A stretch of 37,684 bases of DNA. Origin: an uncultured Bacilli bacterium. GTDB lineage: Bacteria; Bacillota_I; Bacilli_A; RF39; UBA660. Position 1 is the stretch's first letter. Each line of letters begins with the position of its first letter. A program made the position numbers and the translations under genes. The stretch covers positions 1 through 37,684 of the forward strand of contig CALVRZ010000015.1 in the NCBI GenBank assembly GCA_944358875.1, given 5' to 3'. Positions 4,822 to 37,684 of this stretch are shown here, piece by piece. Below the pieces are notes generated by a model. The model did no database searches and was not told where the DNA came from. It saw only the letters and a list, made by a program, of their open reading frames with translations.

Positions 4822-5700
4822 CTAAGCTCCTATTCCATAATATCTAATAAAGAAATAGATAATCGTTCCACATATTGCTATTCCAAACAATAAAAACATA
4901 ATTTTAAGAAAATAATGATTCCTTTTTTCTGGTAGAAATTCATCACTCATACCACCATCAAAATCTTTCTTAGAAAATTTATAAGAACCACTATAGAAAG
5001 ATTCTTCACTTTCTTTGACTTCATCTTTTTTACCAATCGGATCCAAAACAGGAACATCTTCTTTCTTAATCGCATCATCCTGATTAATTGGCTGTGTCAC
5101 AATTGTATCTTCCGTTGGTTTCAAATCACTGAGTAAATCAAGTGGTGACGAATTCGTAGGTATAAGTTGGTCGACTGTAGGATCATCGAGAACTCTCTTT
5201 GTCTGATATTTACGTTCATCAATTTTATTCACATTTTGTTTATTCTCAAGTGCTTCTTTAGCCTTCTCTATTTCCGAAATAGATAACTCACTATCCTGTA
5301 ATGTTGATAAAAAGTTATAATTAGTATCAATTAATTTTTGACTAGCTTCTTTAAGTTTCTTATTATCATTTTTAGCTTTTTCTAACAATTTATTAATATC
5401 ATATATTTTTTGTTCTTGTTTTCTTATTTCATCATCTTCTTTTAAACTATCATAATTAATTTTCGAACCTGAAGTTCCAACATTAGACTCATGTGCTTCT
5501 TTAGCTTTATGATAATCATCACGACTTTCAATTATCTGCTTTAATTTAGTAATATCAATTTCATTAGTATTATCAGGAATAGGCAAATTATCTAAATTAC
5601 TATATTCCCCATATACTTCCTTATATAAAGAGGCATTTTTATTTGTTCTTTTAAACTCTGACAAATCTTGCTTATAATACTTCTCCATCCTACTTTGCAT
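4822..5700 (-). CDS. Tail-anchored coiled-coil protein, unknown function
   Basis: This 292-residue protein has a long charged, helical N-terminal part (coiled coil about 85-165), a proline/serine/threonine-rich linker about 165-235, and one membrane helix at about 266-286 (MFLLFGIAICGTIIYFFIRY) with only four residues after it. That makes it a C-terminally anchored, mostly cytoplasmic protein. The start MQSRMEKYY follows RBS AAGGTGG. An extended -10 (TGGTATGAT) lies about 35 bases upstream. I recognise no family. A role in cell-envelope organisation would be a guess. Confidence 0.7.
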   Translation of the reverse strand: MQSRMEKYYKQDLSEFKRTNKNASLYKEVYGEYSNLDNLPIPDNTNEIDITKLKQIIESRDDYHKAKEAHESNVGTSGSKINYDSLKEDDEIRKQEQKIYDINKLLEKAKNDNKKLKEASQKLIDTNYNFLSTLQDSELSISEIEKAKEALENKQNVNKIDERKYQTKRVLDDPTVDQLIPTNSSPLDLLSDLKPTEDTIVTQPINQDDAIKKEDVPVLDPIGKKDEVKESEESFYSGSYKFSKKDFDGGMSDEFLPEKRNHYFLKIMFLLFGIAICGTIIYFFIRYYGIGA

Positions 5701-12953: not shown

Positions 12954-14537
12954 CTATTGCACAACAAATGGATCTTGCATTGTACCTGTTCCTGTTAAAA
13001 TTACCGAAGATTTTAAAGATATAACTGGTCTAACTCCAGCATTTAAATCAACAAAATAATAACCAACTACATTAGCACTTGCTACTGAATAACCAATAGA
13101 GGCAGTTCCATCAAAAGATCTAGGACTCATTGTATGATAATCTTTACCAGTACTTAAATAATTATTTTCATTTCCGAACATACCACCAGCAACAACTTCA
13201 TCAACAGTAACTAATCCAATCGGATATTCTAAAGCACCATTACCATAGATTGTATCATTTACCGTAAAGGCATCATTTTTCTGACTACATACCATCTTTA
13301 TTTCTTCAACATTTTTCCATGTCCATTCCGAAGTAAAAAGTCTATTTGTAGGCATATACACAGTTGCACTCGTTCCATAACCTAATATACCATAATTTTG
13401 ATAGTCAGATATTACTTGTCTATCATTACAATAGATTGCATCTGCCACTTTATCGCTATAACCCTTATCCACGATATTTGTTTTATACCAGTTATCTAAT
13501 ACCTCTTTTATCGTACTATCATTAATATTGGCATGTGTCTCACTATAACTACTTGCACCAACTTTACCATACATATATCCGACATATGCATTATCGCCAG
13601 TTTTTTCATTATATGCACTTGTTCCGATTTGTCTATCATCACTACTTTCACCATTGGCATGCGCTACTGTTCCATCATAGATTAATCTTATACTTCCATC
13701 ACCATTTATTCTTACTATTCTCCAGTAATATCCTGCAAATTTGACATAATTATTTTGGGCGGCTCCTCTAAAATAATACGTTGTTCCATAATTATCTTGC
13801 GTCTCCCACACTGATTCATCAATTGTCACAAAATCATTTAAATAATTTTTTTCACCCATTGACATTTTTTTTATTAAATTTCCTAGTTCAACACCATTAG
13901 TAACAACAGGATTACCAATTTCTTTATTTGTATAGCAATAACAAATTTCTCTAAGCTGACCATCTACAATTTTTTCTATACATTTACTAGTACATTCAAT
14001 GGTTGCTGTACAACTATCATTCCCGGCTTCTTCATTTGTTTGAAAACTAGTTATAGGTATTTCTCCTTCATTATAAATGATATCATCTGGTCCTTGACTA
14101 TCTGTTGCATACCCTGTTCTTACTCCTATTTCTACCGTTATCTCACTATCTGATGTATTCTTTATTACCATTGGGACTGTTTTAGAAGCCCCACTATCTA
14201 GTTGACCTTTAGCAAGGACTGTTAAATCATCTGATACTTGCGCTATTATAGCACCACTTGGTAAGGTTGTAGGACTTATCATCTTATAATATAATCCATA
14301 TGATATCTTACCATCCATACTATTTTTAACTATGGCATTAAATCTTAATTTTGATCCTGCACTTACTTTTAATTCTTGCGTTCCATTTATATCAAATGTA
14401 TAATTCATATACGTATCCATATTGACCATATTTGTTTCGACACTTGATGTAAACATCGCATATGTTCCATATATTGTTGCCCCTGCTAAAGTTATAATCA
14501 ATAATAACAATAGATAATATTTCTTAATAAATTTCAT
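12954..14537 (-). CDS. Surface protein A: camelysin/TasA-like N-terminal half, lectin-like C-terminal half
   Basis: The start MKFIKKYY at 14537 fits RBS AAAGGG. Residues 4-25 form a signal or anchor helix ending ATIYGTYAMFTSS, which resembles SipW-type signals of TasA/camelysin proteins. Residues about 30-165 are beta-sandwich-like, followed by a cysteine-rich hinge (SCTATIECTSKC, ICYCYT). From about 230 the type-2 C-terminal half is shared with gene D: YYFRGAAQNNYVKFAGYYWR, YWKTNIVDKG-like segments and a final YHTMSP...GVRPVISLKSSV block resembling DUF6273/FGE-type C-lectin folds. Here the final block uses AT-rich codons like the rest of the gene. Function unknown; adhesion or ligand binding is inferred. 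Confidence 0.7.
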   Translation of the reverse strand: MKFIKKYYLLLLLIITLAGATIYGTYAMFTSSVETNMVNMDTYMNYTFDINGTQELKVSAGSKLRFNAIVKNSMDGKISYGLYYKMISPTTLPSGAIIAQVSDDLTVLAKGQLDSGASKTVPMVIKNTSDSEITVEIGVRTGYATDSQGPDDIIYNEGEIPITSFQTNEEAGNDSCTATIECTSKCIEKIVDGQLREICYCYTNKEIGNPVVTNGVELGNLIKKMSMGEKNYLNDFVTIDESVWETQDNYGTTYYFRGAAQNNYVKFAGYYWRIVRINGDGSIRLIYDGTVAHANGESSDDRQIGTSAYNEKTGDNAYVGYMYGKVGASSYSETHANINDSTIKEVLDNWYKTNIVDKGYSDKVADAIYCNDRQVISDYQNYGILGYGTSATVYMPTNRLFTSEWTWKNVEEIKMVCSQKNDAFTVNDTIYGNGALEYPIGLVTVDEVVAGGMFGNENNYLSTGKDYHTMSPRSFDGTASIGYSVASANVVGYYFVDLNAGVRPVISLKSSVILTGTGTMQDPFVVQ

Positions 14538-14558: not shown

Positions 14559-14617
14559 AAAAAAACTACAAAGAAAATAACTTAGAATATTATTTCTAAA
14601 TCTTTCTTTGTAGTTTT
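14559..14617 (-). promoter_or_regulatory. Attenuator-like terminator hairpin before surface gene A
   Basis: A perfect 15-bp lower stem (14603-14617 with 14562-14576) and an upper TTAGAA/TTCTAA stem are followed on the minus strand by a T run that ends about 20 bases before the gene A start. There is no room for a second promoter, so gene A expression must read through this structure. Confidence 0.82.
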
Positions 14618-14639
14618 ATTAACCATATTCTTCTTATAA

Positions 14640-14705
14640 TTATCTAGGAAGTAATTTATACCCCCCCCCCATGACGAACATAGGTTTGTTAATGATTTTA
14701 ACCAT
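14640..14705 (-). CDS. 21-aa leader peptide with G10 tract (locus 1)
   Basis: The peptide is MVKIINKPMFVM-GGG-YKLLPR, with RBS AGGAGG eight bases before the ATG. The glycine codons come from an uninterrupted run of ten G (14661-14670). The block ATTAACAAACCTATGTTCGT is identical to the second leader at 33409-33474. The 0-frame stop is about 25 bases before the hairpin. Loss of one G opens the frame through the hairpin's 5' arm, with the next stop TAA in the apical region. This is likely a regulatory leader rather than a functional protein. Confidence 0.75.
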   Translation of the reverse strand: MVKIINKPMFVMGGGYKLLPR

Positions 14706-14737
14706 ATTTATTACCTCCTAGGTTATTATCTATTAAC

Positions 14738-14767
14738 ATTATACCATAAAGATCCCCGATATTACAA
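14738..14767 (-). promoter_or_regulatory. Promoter of leader 1 and surface gene A
   Basis: On the minus strand TTGTAA (14767-14762), an 18-bp spacer and TATAAT (14743-14738), giving a short 5' leader before the RBS. Confidence 0.75.
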
Positions 14768-16607: not shown

Positions 16608-17942
16608 TTAACCCAAGATGAACGGATTACTAGAACTACCATCTCCAGAAGTTATTTGTACACCTGATTTTAGATAAAGAGCCGGGCGTGTTCCATGACT
16701 ATGAGAAACATTATTGTGACCACGAATAGTACCATCAGAAAATACATGAAATACATCGTTAGCAACACTACTAAGAGGTGTAATAGTCCATTGATATGTA
16801 CTATCATCTTTTAACCATGATGTATCAGAGCAACTATTATTCCAGTAATATCCATCATTACTACATTTTGATAAATCACTAGCATACATATAATCAGATG
16901 GATATATTAAAGCTATTTTACCTATCCATGTAGTACTATTTCCAGTGTATACTTGGGTACCCCTTTCAAAAGTATAATAATCATTAGCATATAAACCTTG
17001 TTGAGTTGAACTTCCACCTAAGTTCCATAAAGCAACCCCAATCATGTCTTGAGCATTTGATGTTAAACTATTTAGGTAATCACCATTCAAATAAGTATTT
17101 AAAGTTGCTACTGACCAATCATTAGAATCATTATCGAATGCATAATTTCCTATGCTTTCATTTCTAGCTATTTTTATTCTTATTTCTTTCTTACCCGTTC
17201 CATCATCGATATTATTAAATACGCCAATTATTCTCCATAATTCATTATTAAATGATACATAGTTATTAGGATCTGTTCCATAATATCTAATATTTCCTCC
17301 AATATCTTCCATCATTCCTACTTCAGTTGCATAATTATAAGTTACATCATTATTAACTACTTCTGTTTTATCAGCCGTTGTATAGATATCTGTTATTGTA
17401 TCTGCACCAGTAGGTGGTTTCTCATCAGTTGCTTCTGCATTTAATCTAAATTCAAAATTTTGATTATACATCGTATTAGGATTACTCATATTTCCATCTA
17501 TCCAAATATATAATGTATATGTTGTTGGTGTACTATTTACTTCTACTCCACTTAGTAATGCTATATTATCTCCAGCATTACTATTAGCAAAATTACCACC
17601 AGTTACTAAATTACTGCCATTATATATTTCATATTTAAATGAAGCATCTTTTAGTCCATTATCTAATGTAACTACTGCCATATTTAAATCTAAATATACT
17701 TGTCCCGTACTACTAACGGTAATATCCTTACTAATACCTTTTTCCTTAGTAGAAGTTGGTATTAAATTATTATTCGTAATATTCTCTCCGTCTTCATAAT
17801 CGATTGTAATACCTCCAACTGTTACTACAACATTAGTTTGTTCATTACTACTTGTACTCCATGTCCACCATGCTAAACTACTTCCCACCATTATGGCGCC
17901 TATTACCAAAATACTTCCTACGATAATATGTTTCTTATGCAT
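16608..17942 (-). CDS. Surface protein B: type-A anchor half, type-1 lectin-like C-terminal half
   Basis: 444 residues. A basic start and membrane helix at about 5-25 end in SSLAWWTWSTSS. A beta-rich domain to about residue 175 (VVVTVGGITIDYEDGENIT, GQVYLDLNMAVV, YTLYIWIDGNMSNPNTMYNQ) resembles TasA/camelysin sandwiches. Then comes the type-1 half shared with gene C: NNYVSFNNELWRIIGVF, RIKIARNESIGNYAF, ANDYYTFERGT, SDYMYASDLSKCS, and the terminal WTITP...TRPALYLKS block of DUF6273/FGE type. RBS GGAAG. Expression must pass the attenuator-like hairpin directly upstream. Confidence 0.72.
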   Translation of the reverse strand: MHKKHIIVGSILVIGAIMVGSSLAWWTWSTSSNEQTNVVVTVGGITIDYEDGENITNNNLIPTSTKEKGISKDITVSSTGQVYLDLNMAVVTLDNGLKDASFKYEIYNGSNLVTGGNFANSNAGDNIALLSGVEVNSTPTTYTLYIWIDGNMSNPNTMYNQNFEFRLNAEATDEKPPTGADTITDIYTTADKTEVVNNDVTYNYATEVGMMEDIGGNIRYYGTDPNNYVSFNNELWRIIGVFNNIDDGTGKKEIRIKIARNESIGNYAFDNDSNDWSVATLNTYLNGDYLNSLTSNAQDMIGVALWNLGGSSTQQGLYANDYYTFERGTQVYTGNSTTWIGKIALIYPSDYMYASDLSKCSNDGYYWNNSCSDTSWLKDDSTYQWTITPLSSVANDVFHVFSDGTIRGHNNVSHSHGTRPALYLKSGVQITSGDGSSSNPFILG

Positions 17943-18044: not shown

Positions 18045-18107
18045 TTAATTTATACCCCCTCCCCCTAGTATACAATAAGTTAACATTTTAAAATTCAATT
18101 TTTGCAT
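18045..18107 (-). CDS. 20-aa leader peptide with interrupted G tract (locus 3)
   Basis: Reads MQKLNFKMLTYCILGGGGIN. The tract is GGGGGAGGGGG, so it is broken by one A. It shares the TATAAATTA that follows the tract in the other two leaders but not their peptide start. An internal ATG at 18086 is an alternative start. Gain of one G would open the frame to a TAA just past the hairpin apex. RBS AGGTGG is about nine bases upstream. The call rests mainly on its position and likeness to the other two leaders. Confidence 0.5.
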   Translation of the reverse strand: MQKLNFKMLTYCILGGGGIN

Positions 18108-31855: not shown

Positions 31856-33208
31856 TTATTCGACTGATAAAGTGAATGGATTATTTTGGCTGCCATCTCC
31901 CCCAGTAATTTGGACATTAGATTTTAGAAATAAGACCGGGCGAGAGGCGCGAGTGTTGACGACGTTATTGCGGTCGACATAACCCGCGTTGTACACGATA
32001 AACACGTAGTCAGAATTACTAGCATTAGGAGTAATAGTCCATTGCATAGCACTTGTATTTCTTAGCCATGATGTATCACGGCAATTAATTTGGTCATCAT
32101 TCCAGTTATATCCATCTAAACTACATTTAGATAAATCTCCAGCATACATATAATCAGATGGATACATTAATGCTATTTTTCCTGTCCATGTTGTACTTCG
32201 TCCTGAATATACGGTAGTGCCCCTTTCAAAAGTATAATAATCATTGGCATATAAACCTTCATATTCAGAACTTCCTCCTAGGTTCCATAGAACATCGCCA
32301 ATCATATTTTGAGCATCAGTGGTTAAAGTTGGAAGATAGGTTCCATTTAAATAAGTATTAAGGGTAGCAGTTGGCCACTCGTTTACATTATTTGAATCCC
32401 ATGCATAATTACCTATACTTTCACTTCTAGCTATCTTTATTCTTGTTTCTTTAGTACCAGTTCCATCATCAATTTCTTTAAATACGCCAATTATGCGCCA
32501 TAATTCATCATTAAATGATACATAGTTATTAGGATCTGCTCCATAATATCTGATATTACCTCCAATATCTTCCATCATTCCTACTTTGGTTGCATAATTA
32601 TAAGTTACATCATTATTAACTACTTCTGTTTTATCAGCAGTTGTATAAATATTTGTTATTGTATCAGTTGCAGGAATAACTGGTTTCTCATCAGTTGCTT
32701 CTGCATTTAATCTAAATTCAAAGTTTTGATTATACATTGTATTTGGATTACTCATATTGCCATCGATCCAGATATACAATGTATATGTTGTAGGACTACT
32801 GGTTACTTCTACTCCACTTAATAATGCTATATTATCTCCAACATTACTATTAGCAAAGTTTCCACCTGTTACTAAATTACTACCATTGTATATTTCATAT
32901 TTAAATGAGGCATCTTTAAGTCCATCATCTAAAGTAACTACAGCCATATTTAAATCTAAATATACTTGCCCTGTACTACTAATGGTAATGTTTTTACTAA
33001 TACCTTTTTCCTTAGTAGAAGTTGGTATTAAATTATTATTAGTAATATTTTCTCCATCTTCATAATCAATTGTAATACCTCCAACTGTTACTACCACATT
33101 AGTCTGTTCATTACTACTTGTACTCCACGTCCACCATGCTAAACTACTACCTAAAGCTATAGCGCCGATTAGTAAAACAACCCCTACAATAATATGTTTC
33201 TTTTTCAT
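31856..33208 (-). CDS. Surface protein C: type-A anchor half, type-1 lectin-like half with hypervariable end
   Basis: 450 residues, a close paralogue of gene B over the first 390 or so: anchor helix ending SSLAWWTWSTSS, VVVTVGGITIDYEDGENIT, NNYVSFNDELWRIIGVF and YANDYYTFERGT. The terminal WTITP-to-SRPVLFLKS block differs sharply from gene B at almost every position except a VF-V-G-NNV framework. In DNA, 31937-32014 is GC-rich and uses no codon ending in A (26 codons by my count), unlike the rest of the gene. It has its own promoter as well as the upstream leader and hairpin. Confidence 0.72.
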   Translation of the reverse strand: MKKKHIIVGVVLLIGAIALGSSLAWWTWSTSSNEQTNVVVTVGGITIDYEDGENITNNNLIPTSTKEKGISKNITISSTGQVYLDLNMAVVTLDDGLKDASFKYEIYNGSNLVTGGNFANSNVGDNIALLSGVEVTSSPTTYTLYIWIDGNMSNPNTMYNQNFEFRLNAEATDEKPVIPATDTITNIYTTADKTEVVNNDVTYNYATKVGMMEDIGGNIRYYGADPNNYVSFNDELWRIIGVFKEIDDGTGTKETRIKIARSESIGNYAWDSNNVNEWPTATLNTYLNGTYLPTLTTDAQNMIGDVLWNLGGSSEYEGLYANDYYTFERGTTVYSGRSTTWTGKIALMYPSDYMYAGDLSKCSLDGYNWNDDQINCRDTSWLRNTSAMQWTITPNASNSDYVFIVYNAGYVDRNNVVNTRASRPVLFLKSNVQITGGDGSQNNPFTLSVE

Positions 33209-33287: not shown

Positions 33288-33316
33288 ATTATAACAAATA
33301 ATTAATTAACTTACAA
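33288..33316 (-). promoter_or_regulatory. Promoter of surface gene C
   Basis: On the minus strand TTGTAA (33316-33311), a 17-bp spacer and TATAAT (33293-33288), between the attenuator-like hairpin and the gene. Confidence 0.75.
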
Positions 33317-33335: not shown

Positions 33336-33384
33336 AATAAAAACTACAAAGAGATAAGCCTAACTAGACTTACCCTTTGTAGTT
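33336..33384 (-). promoter_or_regulatory. Attenuator-like terminator hairpin between leader 2 and gene C
   Basis: AACTACAAAG/CTTTGTAGTT (33375-33384 with 33342-33351) plus an upper GTAAG/CTTAT stem, then TTTTTATT on the minus strand. Same sequence family as the hairpin before gene A. It also serves to end the cdaA-cdaR transcript. Confidence 0.82.
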
Positions 33385-33408
33385 ATCTTTATATAATTAT
33401 CACTATTG

Positions 33409-33474
33409 TTACTTAGAAGGTAATTTATAACCCCCCCCCCTGACGAACATAGGTTTGTTAATATGCTTCAACAT
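33409..33474 (-). CDS. 21-aa leader peptide with G10 tract (locus 2)
   Basis: Reads MLKHINKPMFVR-GGG-YKLPSK. RBS AGAGGAGG lies only about 10 bases after the cdaR stop, so it is translated from the cdaA-cdaR transcript. The pure ten-G run is 33431-33440. Peptide and DNA match leader 1 across INKPMFV and YKL. Loss of one G opens the frame to a TAG inside the hairpin's apical loop. Confidence 0.75.
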   Translation of the reverse strand: MLKHINKPMFVRGGGYKLPSK

Positions 33475-36603: not shown

Positions 36604-37684
36604 TTAGTTAATTTGTACTTGATAAGGGCTATCTATAGTACCATTACCTGATAGTTCTACTGAAGATTTGAGAGAAAGCACGGGCCGCACACCGAACGTG
36701 TTATTCACGTTGTAGCTGTAGTTGAGGAAACCATCATAGTCCAAGTACCACACGTAAGCGTAACCACCACTGAAGTAGTCCGGGCTCATTGTCCAATAAT
36801 ATTGACCTGTGTATAAATAATAGCTACTATTGTTTGTACCTCCCTTTCCTCCGCCTGCTAATGCTTCATCTACTGTTAATAATCCTACCGGGTATGTTAA
36901 TGCTCCATTTCCTTTTTCAACATCATCTACGGTAAAGGCATCATTCTTTTGACTACACGTCATCCTTATTTCCTGAGTACTATCCCATGACCCACTTGTT
37001 GTATATAATCTACTTGCTGGGGCATATGCTGTTGCATTTGTTCCATAACCTAAACTTCCAAAACTACTCATACCTGATGTCGTTTGTCTATCATTACAAT
37101 ATATTACATCAGCTACTTTATCACTATAGCCTTTATCTTCAATATTTGTTTTATACCAATTATCTACTACTGTTTTTACAGTACTATTATTGGTATTTTC
37201 ATGCGTCGCACTATAACTACTTGCTCCAGCACTTCCATACATATATCCTATATACGCATTATCATTATAATTACTATTATATTCACTTGTTCCTATTTGT
37301 CTATCTTCGCTACTTTCGCCATTGGCATGCGCACTTGTTCCATCATATATTAATCTAATTGAACCATCACCATTTATTCTAACTATTCTAAAGTAATATC
37401 CTGCAAATTGCACATAATTATTATCTACATCTCCTCTAAAATAATATGTTGTTCCATAATCATCTGTCGTTTCATATATCCCTTCATTTGTTGTCGCGAT
37501 AGCCGTAACACTATTTTTTTCTCCATTACTTGTTAGATTTAAATAACTTAACATTTCAGCTGAAGTCCTAGTAGTAACTGCATTACCTGAATTTTCATCG
37601 GTAGCACTAGCATTTAATCTAAATTCAAAATTTTGATTATACATTGTACTTGGATTTGGCATGTTTCCATCTATCCATATATAT
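36604..37684 (-). CDS. Surface protein D (5' end beyond window): type-A anchor half fused to type-2 lectin-like half
   Basis: The frame stays open to the window edge; upstream of the first in-window Met the codons read YIWIDGN, as in genes B and C, so the true start lies outside. The visible N-terminal part NPSTMYNQNFEFRLNASATDE is type A. The rest matches the type-2 half of gene A (YYFRGDVDNNYVQFAGYYFR, DNWYKTNIEDKGYSDKVAD, CNDRQ). The last block, YYWTMSP to GVRPVLSLKSSV, is hypervariable against gene A, GC-rich and has no codon ending in A over 36 codons by my count. Gene D is thus a natural chimera of the other paralogues. Confidence 0.75.
   Translation of the reverse strand, partial: YIWIDGNMPNPSTMYNQNFEFRLNASATDENSGNAVTTRTSAEMLSYLNLTSNGEKNSVTAIATTNEGIYETTDDYGTTYYFRGDVDNNYVQFAGYYFRIVRINGDGSIRLIYDGTSAHANGESSEDRQIGTSEYNSNYNDNAYIGYMYGSAGASSYSATHENTNNSTVKTVVDNWYKTNIEDKGYSDKVADVIYCNDRQTTSGMSSFGSLGYGTNATAYAPASRLYTTSGSWDSTQEIRMTCSQKNDAFTVDDVEKGNGALTYPVGLLTVDEALAGGGKGGTNNSSYYLYTGQYYWTMSPDYFSGGYAYVWYLDYDGFLNYSYNVNNTFGVRPVLSLKSSVELSGNGTIDSPYQVQIN

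Follow-up and report, generated by a model that had tools for sequence, protein, structure and literature searches.

In the genome of an uncultured Bacilli bacterium (1.31 Mb in 56 contigs; G000 below), we find 23 copies of an element in which a leader ORF with a strong Shine-Dalgarno (SD) sequence carries a run of G and is followed by an intrinsic-terminator-like hairpin. Twenty-one copies have an intact tract of 9-12 G and two an interrupted one (locus 3, below, and C32:7441). We propose that the element is a phase-variable, translation-coupled transcription attenuator, a reading that we hold to be probable. Under this model, transcription would begin upstream and a ribosome would initiate the leader ORF at its SD. 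Slippage would change the length of the poly-G tract and thereby set the frame of the leader 3' of it. In two of the three frames the ribosome would stop short of the terminator, so that folding of the hairpin makes RNA polymerase terminate and leaves the downstream surface gene OFF. In the third, the ribosome would enter the 5' arm and block the hairpin, and transcription would reach the surface gene (ON). The parts of the element, a frame logic that holds in 32 of 33 copies, a depletion of stops in the read-through frame and tracts that differ between near-identical copies are all established by the DNA sequence. Slippage in living cells, translation of the leader, terminator function, ribosome-mediated antitermination and a role for a helix at the SD are inferred, and no reads, RNA or protein data stand behind the attenuator reading.

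Architecture of the element

Three copies lie in the window, that is, the whole 37,684-nt stretch of DNA that was analyzed: locus 1, another intact copy with its tract at 33440-33431, and one whose tract, at 18065-18055, is interrupted. The features of locus 1 are as follows.

14559-14767, minus strand: locus 1 element (promoter-like site, leader ORF, G10 and hairpin, before a surface gene)
14738-14767, minus strand: promoter-like site TTGTAA-18-TATAAT with extended -10; 10/12 matches, consensus match only
14714-14719, minus strand: leader SD, AGGAGG
14640-14705, minus strand: leader ORF in the 10-G frame, MVKIINKPMFVMGGGYKLLPR, with ATG at 14705 and 21 codons, then TAA
14661-14670, minus strand: run of exactly ten G
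14582-14705, minus strand: leader ORF as read with 9 G (read-through frame)
14644-14655, minus strand: anti-SD segment ATTACTTCCTAG, which pairs with CTAGGAGGTAAT (14721-14710) around the leader SD
14559-14616, minus strand: intrinsic-terminator-like hairpin (14616-14563) and T7 (14565-14559)
12954-14537, minus strand: surface gene A, 527 aa, with an N-terminal hydrophobic segment and a C-terminal variable-region-like domain ending RPVISLKSS

The hairpin folds at -21.4 kcal/mol against -6.0 for shuffled sequence (z = -7.3), with no shuffle equally stable, and about 21 nt separate the terminator-like T7 from the start of surface gene A, a protein with no NCBIfam family and no Pfam family above cut-off. 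A sequence-only reading of this DNA had described a leader with a strong ribosome-binding site, ten G and a terminator-like hairpin before surface gene A, and the 21 codons, the AGGAGG, the tract of exactly ten and the z-score confirm it. The promoter that it also placed here is less secure: a site with 10 of 12 matches does exist, but it rests on the consensus alone, and six promoter-like sites around locus 1 against a shuffled mean of 5.0 make it only suggestive. The three frame outcomes bear out what had been said of them. With 10 G the leader stops 27 nt upstream of the hairpin (predicted OFF); with 9 G the ORF enters the hairpin and ends at a TAA at 14584-14582, just beyond the apical loop (predicted ON); and with 11 G there is an immediate stop at GTA TAA.

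The other two copies in the window have the following features.

33431-33440, minus strand: locus 2 run of ten G
33409-33474, minus strand: locus 2 leader ORF in the 10-G frame, MLKHINKPMFVRGGGYKLPSK, then a stop; the leader starts at 33474, directly after a ybbR-like gene
33338-33386, minus strand: locus 2 terminator-like hairpin, -22.2 kcal/mol, z -7.3
33288-33316, minus strand: promoter-like TTGTAA-17-TATAAT between the locus 2 terminator and gene (long form), 10/12 matches; similar sequence in other long-form copies and in a sister species
31856-33208, minus strand: locus 2 surface gene, 450 aa, with a DUF6273 match and a C-terminal variable region
18055-18065, minus strand: locus 3 interrupted tract, GGGGGAGGGGG, in a type-B leader with ATG at 18107
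16608-17942, minus strand: locus 3 surface gene, 444 aa, with a DUF6273 match

Locus 3 retains the frame logic despite its interrupted tract, which is probably less slippery, and its hairpin stem has T-A in place of a C-G pair. A further variable-region surface gene (36604-37683, with the variable-region anchor GTGCGGCCCGTGCTTTCTCTC at 36690-36670) is truncated by the end of the window, and its upstream region falls outside.

A repeated element in two species

Every run of at least nine G in the G000 assembly (21 loci) falls inside this element. At about 14% G, a simple expectation for 1.31 Mb is about 0.05 such runs, and in the window 0.08 runs of eight G were expected against six overlapping matches seen, which come from the two G10 runs. 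These counts bear out the earlier view that a ten-G run is unlikely by chance; the description as a single locus has the right coordinates but concerns one of 23 copies. Perfect CTACAAAG..CTTTGTAGT hairpins in the genome likewise all lie within copies of the element. The leaders are of two types, A (M-K-INKPMFV[RM]GGG...) and B (MQKLNFKSLTYCILGGG...), and the same-genus genome G001 (a sister species; MAG uncultured Bacilli bacterium E24__bin45) has 11 copies with a diverged B-like leader. Hairpins of -15 to -22 kcal/mol formed in 30/30 copies folded. Covariation by alignment was uninformative for these hairpins, as the arms are too conserved and the inner stems too variable in length. Loss of mismatch repair was rejected as the cause of the G runs, given a full-length MutS in G000 and in nearly all of its family.

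Several observations concern the placement of the copies. At apparently orthologous sites the two species carry different leader types (L070/L137, L051/L130 and L057/L136), suggesting that the element has been replaced or gene-converted at fixed places. Numerous contigs break off at most a few hundred bases from an element (C1, C10, C32 and C34 of G000; C16, C23, C34, C77, C79 and C80 of G001), probably because the copies are near-identical or heterogeneous in the population. The copy at C32:7441 of G000 (L067) is degenerate: its tract reads GGGAGGGGGGG and its hairpin is of another sequence (ACAAAAGGTAAAAC..GTTTTACCTTTTGT). What follows is no more than the 3' end of a variable-region gene, which looks as though the remainder had been lost by recombination. 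Spread by viruses was set aside after a search of viral contigs with two patterns gave 0 matches.

Frame logic across the copies

We located the first stop in each of the three post-tract frames in 33 copies from the two species. In 32 of them one frame's first stop lies 17-88 nt past the start of the hairpin, the exception being L256, whose longest frame stops 5 nt before it. The remaining two frames stop no more than 22 nt after the tract in all 33 copies, and the distance from stop to terminator in these two OFF frames is 24-44 nt in nearly all. Between +22 and 14 nt into the hairpin, stops occupy 1 of 352 codons in the read-through frame, and 43 of 351 and 85 of 346 codons in the others. 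As the read-through frame was picked as the longest and the copies are related, Fisher's p (6e-8) is overstated and partly circular, and we used a comparison with shuffled sequence instead. With one representative for each of 10 spacer clusters, the counts are 0/109 for the read-through frame versus 39/218 for the others. A fraction of 0.505 of shuffled segments have any open frame, so an open frame in 10 of 10 clusters has a probability of about 0.001. The logic holds in at least three leader/spacer sequence types, and this comparison of sequences supports the earlier interpretation, which was drawn from locus 1 alone. Moreover, types A and B hold different frames of the common core TATAAATTA open, which argues that the logic is more than inherited sequence.

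The leader codons show no third-position bias, and the case for translation of the leader thus rests on the SD, the start codon and the frame rather than on coding constraint. The same evidence bears on whether the leader might be a functional micropeptide in which the G tract merely encodes glycines. Peptide cores do recur (NKPMFV-GGG-YKL and LTYCILGGG), but differences between codons are about as frequent at each of the three positions (108/92/101 and 363/296/329) and are mostly non-synonymous, GGG is the only codon used, L065 has a frame-changing indel, and types A and B share a layout with unrelated peptides. In the absence of coding constraint we dropped this explanation, which we regard as very improbable.

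Tract length and predicted expression states

Under the attenuator model, the length of the tract predicts the state of each copy. The copies L132 and L135 of the sister species share 99.4% identity across 157 nt, tract excluded, and carry 9 versus 10 G, predicted ON versus OFF. Tract lengths among paralogues range from 9 to 12 G, which is variation between copies and not between cells; the collections hold one genome per species, so no strain comparison could be made and instability is inferred from paralogues. Only 1 of 22 copies scored in G000 is predicted ON (C54), and nearly all OFF copies have one G too many. Free drift would not give such uneven states, which counts against the model. 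In the sister species five of 11 copies are predicted ON and six OFF.

These lengths also bear on a variant of the model in which the attenuator is the same but the frame is set by slippage of the polymerase or ribosome during expression, giving a fixed low read-through (noise or a rheostat) and no heritable ON/OFF switch. Slippage is conceivable whenever a template with an uninterrupted stretch of 9-12 G is copied, and nearly all tracts of G000 exceed an ON length by one G, which would fit a leaky OFF as the maintained state. Against this, near-identical copies have tracts of different length in the DNA itself, and five ON and six OFF tracts are found in the sister species. We consider this variant unlikely.

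Short-form and long-form copies

The copies differ in the sequence between terminator and gene. Locus 1 is a short-form copy, with no promoter-like sequence there. Long-form copies (locus 2 and about half of the others) have some 100 nt extra, with a promoter-like TTGTAA-17-TGTTATAAT that is conserved in the two species, and several of their leaders lie directly behind a ybbR, thioredoxin-like or trpS-like gene without an evident upstream promoter. For the long form it is therefore possible, though in our judgment the less likely case, that the gene is transcribed from a promoter of its own after the terminator, with the leader and terminator insulating it from, or interfering with, upstream transcription. 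Against this, the short-form copies, including locus 1, lack such a sequence and have only a 20-30 nt stretch from T-run to gene, and the frame logic is kept equally in both forms. With promoter-like sequence after the terminator in about half of the copies, the simple attenuator model suits locus 1 better than locus 2, and the long-form tracts may modulate upstream read-through or may matter less. The promoter-like sequence of the long form (33316-33288 at locus 2) is often followed by an ATGACA..TTGTCAT inverted repeat.

Pairing at the Shine-Dalgarno sequence

In many copies the leader SD is complementary to the sequence directly 3' of the tract. At locus 1, the two segments form a 12-bp helix in the minimum free energy fold, with a duplex energy of -17.3 versus a shuffled mean of -4.8 kcal/mol. 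The mean duplex energy is -14.1 kcal/mol in type A and -9.9 kcal/mol in the sister species. Most mismatched combinations of SD and post-tract sequence give about -4 to -8 kcal/mol, with the exception of the B-type SD with the G001 post-tract sequence (-10.3 kcal/mol). In type B the pairing is weak. When type B leaders and those of the sister species are folded, a CCTCCC-like sequence just upstream of the ATG is the pairing partner of the G run. We infer that the SD helix, or the pairing of the tract, may limit initiation to a pioneer ribosome that follows RNA polymerase closely and loads before the tract is transcribed.

Surface genes and diversity-generating retroelements

With the exception of degenerate L067, all copies with enough readable downstream sequence are followed by a gene whose product has an N-terminal hydrophobic segment. 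Most of these proteins end in a variable region with the motif RPV[LI]xL, and some match DUF6273. The assembly breaks two attenuated surface genes (L148, L142) into pairs of ORFs (409 + 115 aa and 361 + 196 aa). Not all variable-region genes are associated with a G tract.

G000 has two reverse transcriptases (RTs), and the one on contig C3 is accompanied by a bAvd-like gene and a template repeat:

G000:C3:14500-24000: diversity-generating retroelement L152, with RT (3555-4583 of L152), bAvd-like gene, template repeat (5405-5517) and target gene (about 6669 and higher)

This RT matches RVT_1 (E 1.7e-14) and its closest solved RT is 8ub7, which we take to be the RT of a diversity-generating retroelement. 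The partner gene matches bAvd over its full length (E 5.8e-9), below Pfam's cut-off. Compared with the C3 template, the target gene on C3 has 16 of 18 mismatches at template adenines and an attenuated gene on C30 (L160) has 21 of 23. At least one attenuated gene, that on C30, is thus a clear target of the diversity-generating retroelement. The variable region of locus 2 does not fit the C3 template (13/34 mismatches at template A). A second class of variable region, which includes those of attenuated genes on C8, C12 and C20, has constant anchors and variable NNC/NNT codons; no template repeat for this class was found in the assembly, and the variable region of locus 1 lacks the signs of the class. 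We see about an even chance that surface variation here has two layers, in which some 23 poly-G attenuators choose which surface lectin-like members are expressed, most being OFF at any time, and retroelements rewrite some of the binding regions. If so, every lineage would bear a combinatorial, hypermutable surface.

Comparison with known systems

The closest precedent that we found is in Streptococcus gallolyticus, where GCAGA repeats in a leader peptide switch the Pil1 pilus via ribosome-induced destabilization of a terminator, with a parallel in Pil3 (Danne et al. 2014, PMC3894217); proof for Pil1 came from terminator deletion, a start-codon change and stop insertion (PMC3894217). As in Pil1 and Pil3, a short repeat sits in a leader ORF, a change of frame shifts the stop into or past a terminator, and the genes governed, here by prediction, are for surface structures. 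The OFF stop lies 39 nt before the terminator in Pil1 and mostly 24-44 nt before it here. The repeat is a GCAGA pentamer in the pilus loci and a homopolymer of G here; there are two pilus loci there and 23 copies with unrelated leader sequences here; and the pairing of SD with anti-SD, and downstream genes that include targets of diversity-generating retroelements, are additions here. The coupling of tract length to termination, which had been put forward as an unusual design, is indeed unusual but thus not without precedent. We conclude that the GCAGA repeat is a trait of the first example and not of the mechanism, and that the poly-G element is a variant that works alike, not a homologue. 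Within an open-access collection, literature searches covering leaders, G runs and retroelements in phase variation gave no G-tract example of such an attenuator. In the literature that we found, repeat-controlled attenuation has so far been shown in one species at two pilus loci. The homopolymer form and the 23-locus scale are new, and the same logic is seen here in a distant uncultured Bacilli lineage, again in its sister species, with related layouts in further genera of the family. This suggests that such attenuation is under-recognized, the switch being outside the gene, where scans for in-frame repeats do not look. The element also links a phase-variation switch with retroelement-diversified surface proteins, and expression state would be predictable from tract length in metagenomes.

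A variable G run in an mRNA leader also tunes the downstream gene at Helicobacter pylori tlpB, which acts via the antisense RNA RepG and has no leader ORF or terminator frame logic (PMC8295292). By that precedent a C-rich small RNA might bind the G run here, but no Rfam family scored above its gathering threshold at the element, the window yielding tRNA and tmRNA alone, and the frame logic would be left unexplained; we give this explanation next to no weight.

In E. coli trp-type attenuators, the position of a ribosome on a leader ORF decides whether the terminator forms, with stalling upon amino-acid starvation. The control of a terminator by ribosome position is common to these and to our model; the trp type, however, has no frame set by a repeat, and we saw in the element no competing antiterminator helix overlapping the terminator. 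Attenuation by glycine starvation was also set aside, on the inference that a ribosome stalled on GGG would be about 40-50 nt before the terminator and unable to melt the hairpin.

Poly-G tracts elsewhere in the family

Runs of at least nine G occur in 53 of 98 sampled genomes of the family, and the loci sampled fall into three uses: as promoter spacer (G013, G093, G028 and G095), in ORFs, internally or at the start (L199, L207 and L208 among others), and in a leader with hairpin. The last is found in G076 with a B-like leader and in G116 and G007 with unrelated sequence, where the longest frame ends at the hairpin or just short of it. Poly-G promoter spacers in other genera use the same G9-14 substrate in many copies, and in several of the sampled cases they adjoin genes whose products are exported or envelope-like; such a tract sits between -35 and -10 and would alter promoter strength, not a leader frame. 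With G10-14 between TTGACA and TATNNT in those genera (for example, TTGACAAATATGC-G10-TATCCT; L216-L219, L228, L229), the tract of our element might also be read as a spacer that sets the -35/-10 distance, with the TATAAA directly after it as -10. The hexamers 17-18 nt 5' of the TATAAA (CCTATG, CTATGT and TTATTG) are, however, unlike TTGACA, transcription would begin only about 30 nt before the terminator, and the SD, leader ORF and frame logic would have no explanation. Lacking a -35, this reading was dropped for the element as highly unlikely.

Two further observations come from these genera. In G013, tracts of G10-G14 lie in TTGACA-AATATGC-Gn-TATCCT promoters (L216-L219), apparently many phase-variable promoters in another genus. 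In L205 (G099:C2), a G9 tract in a leader-like ORF is followed a few bases on by CCCTCCTCC, which is complementary to the tract.
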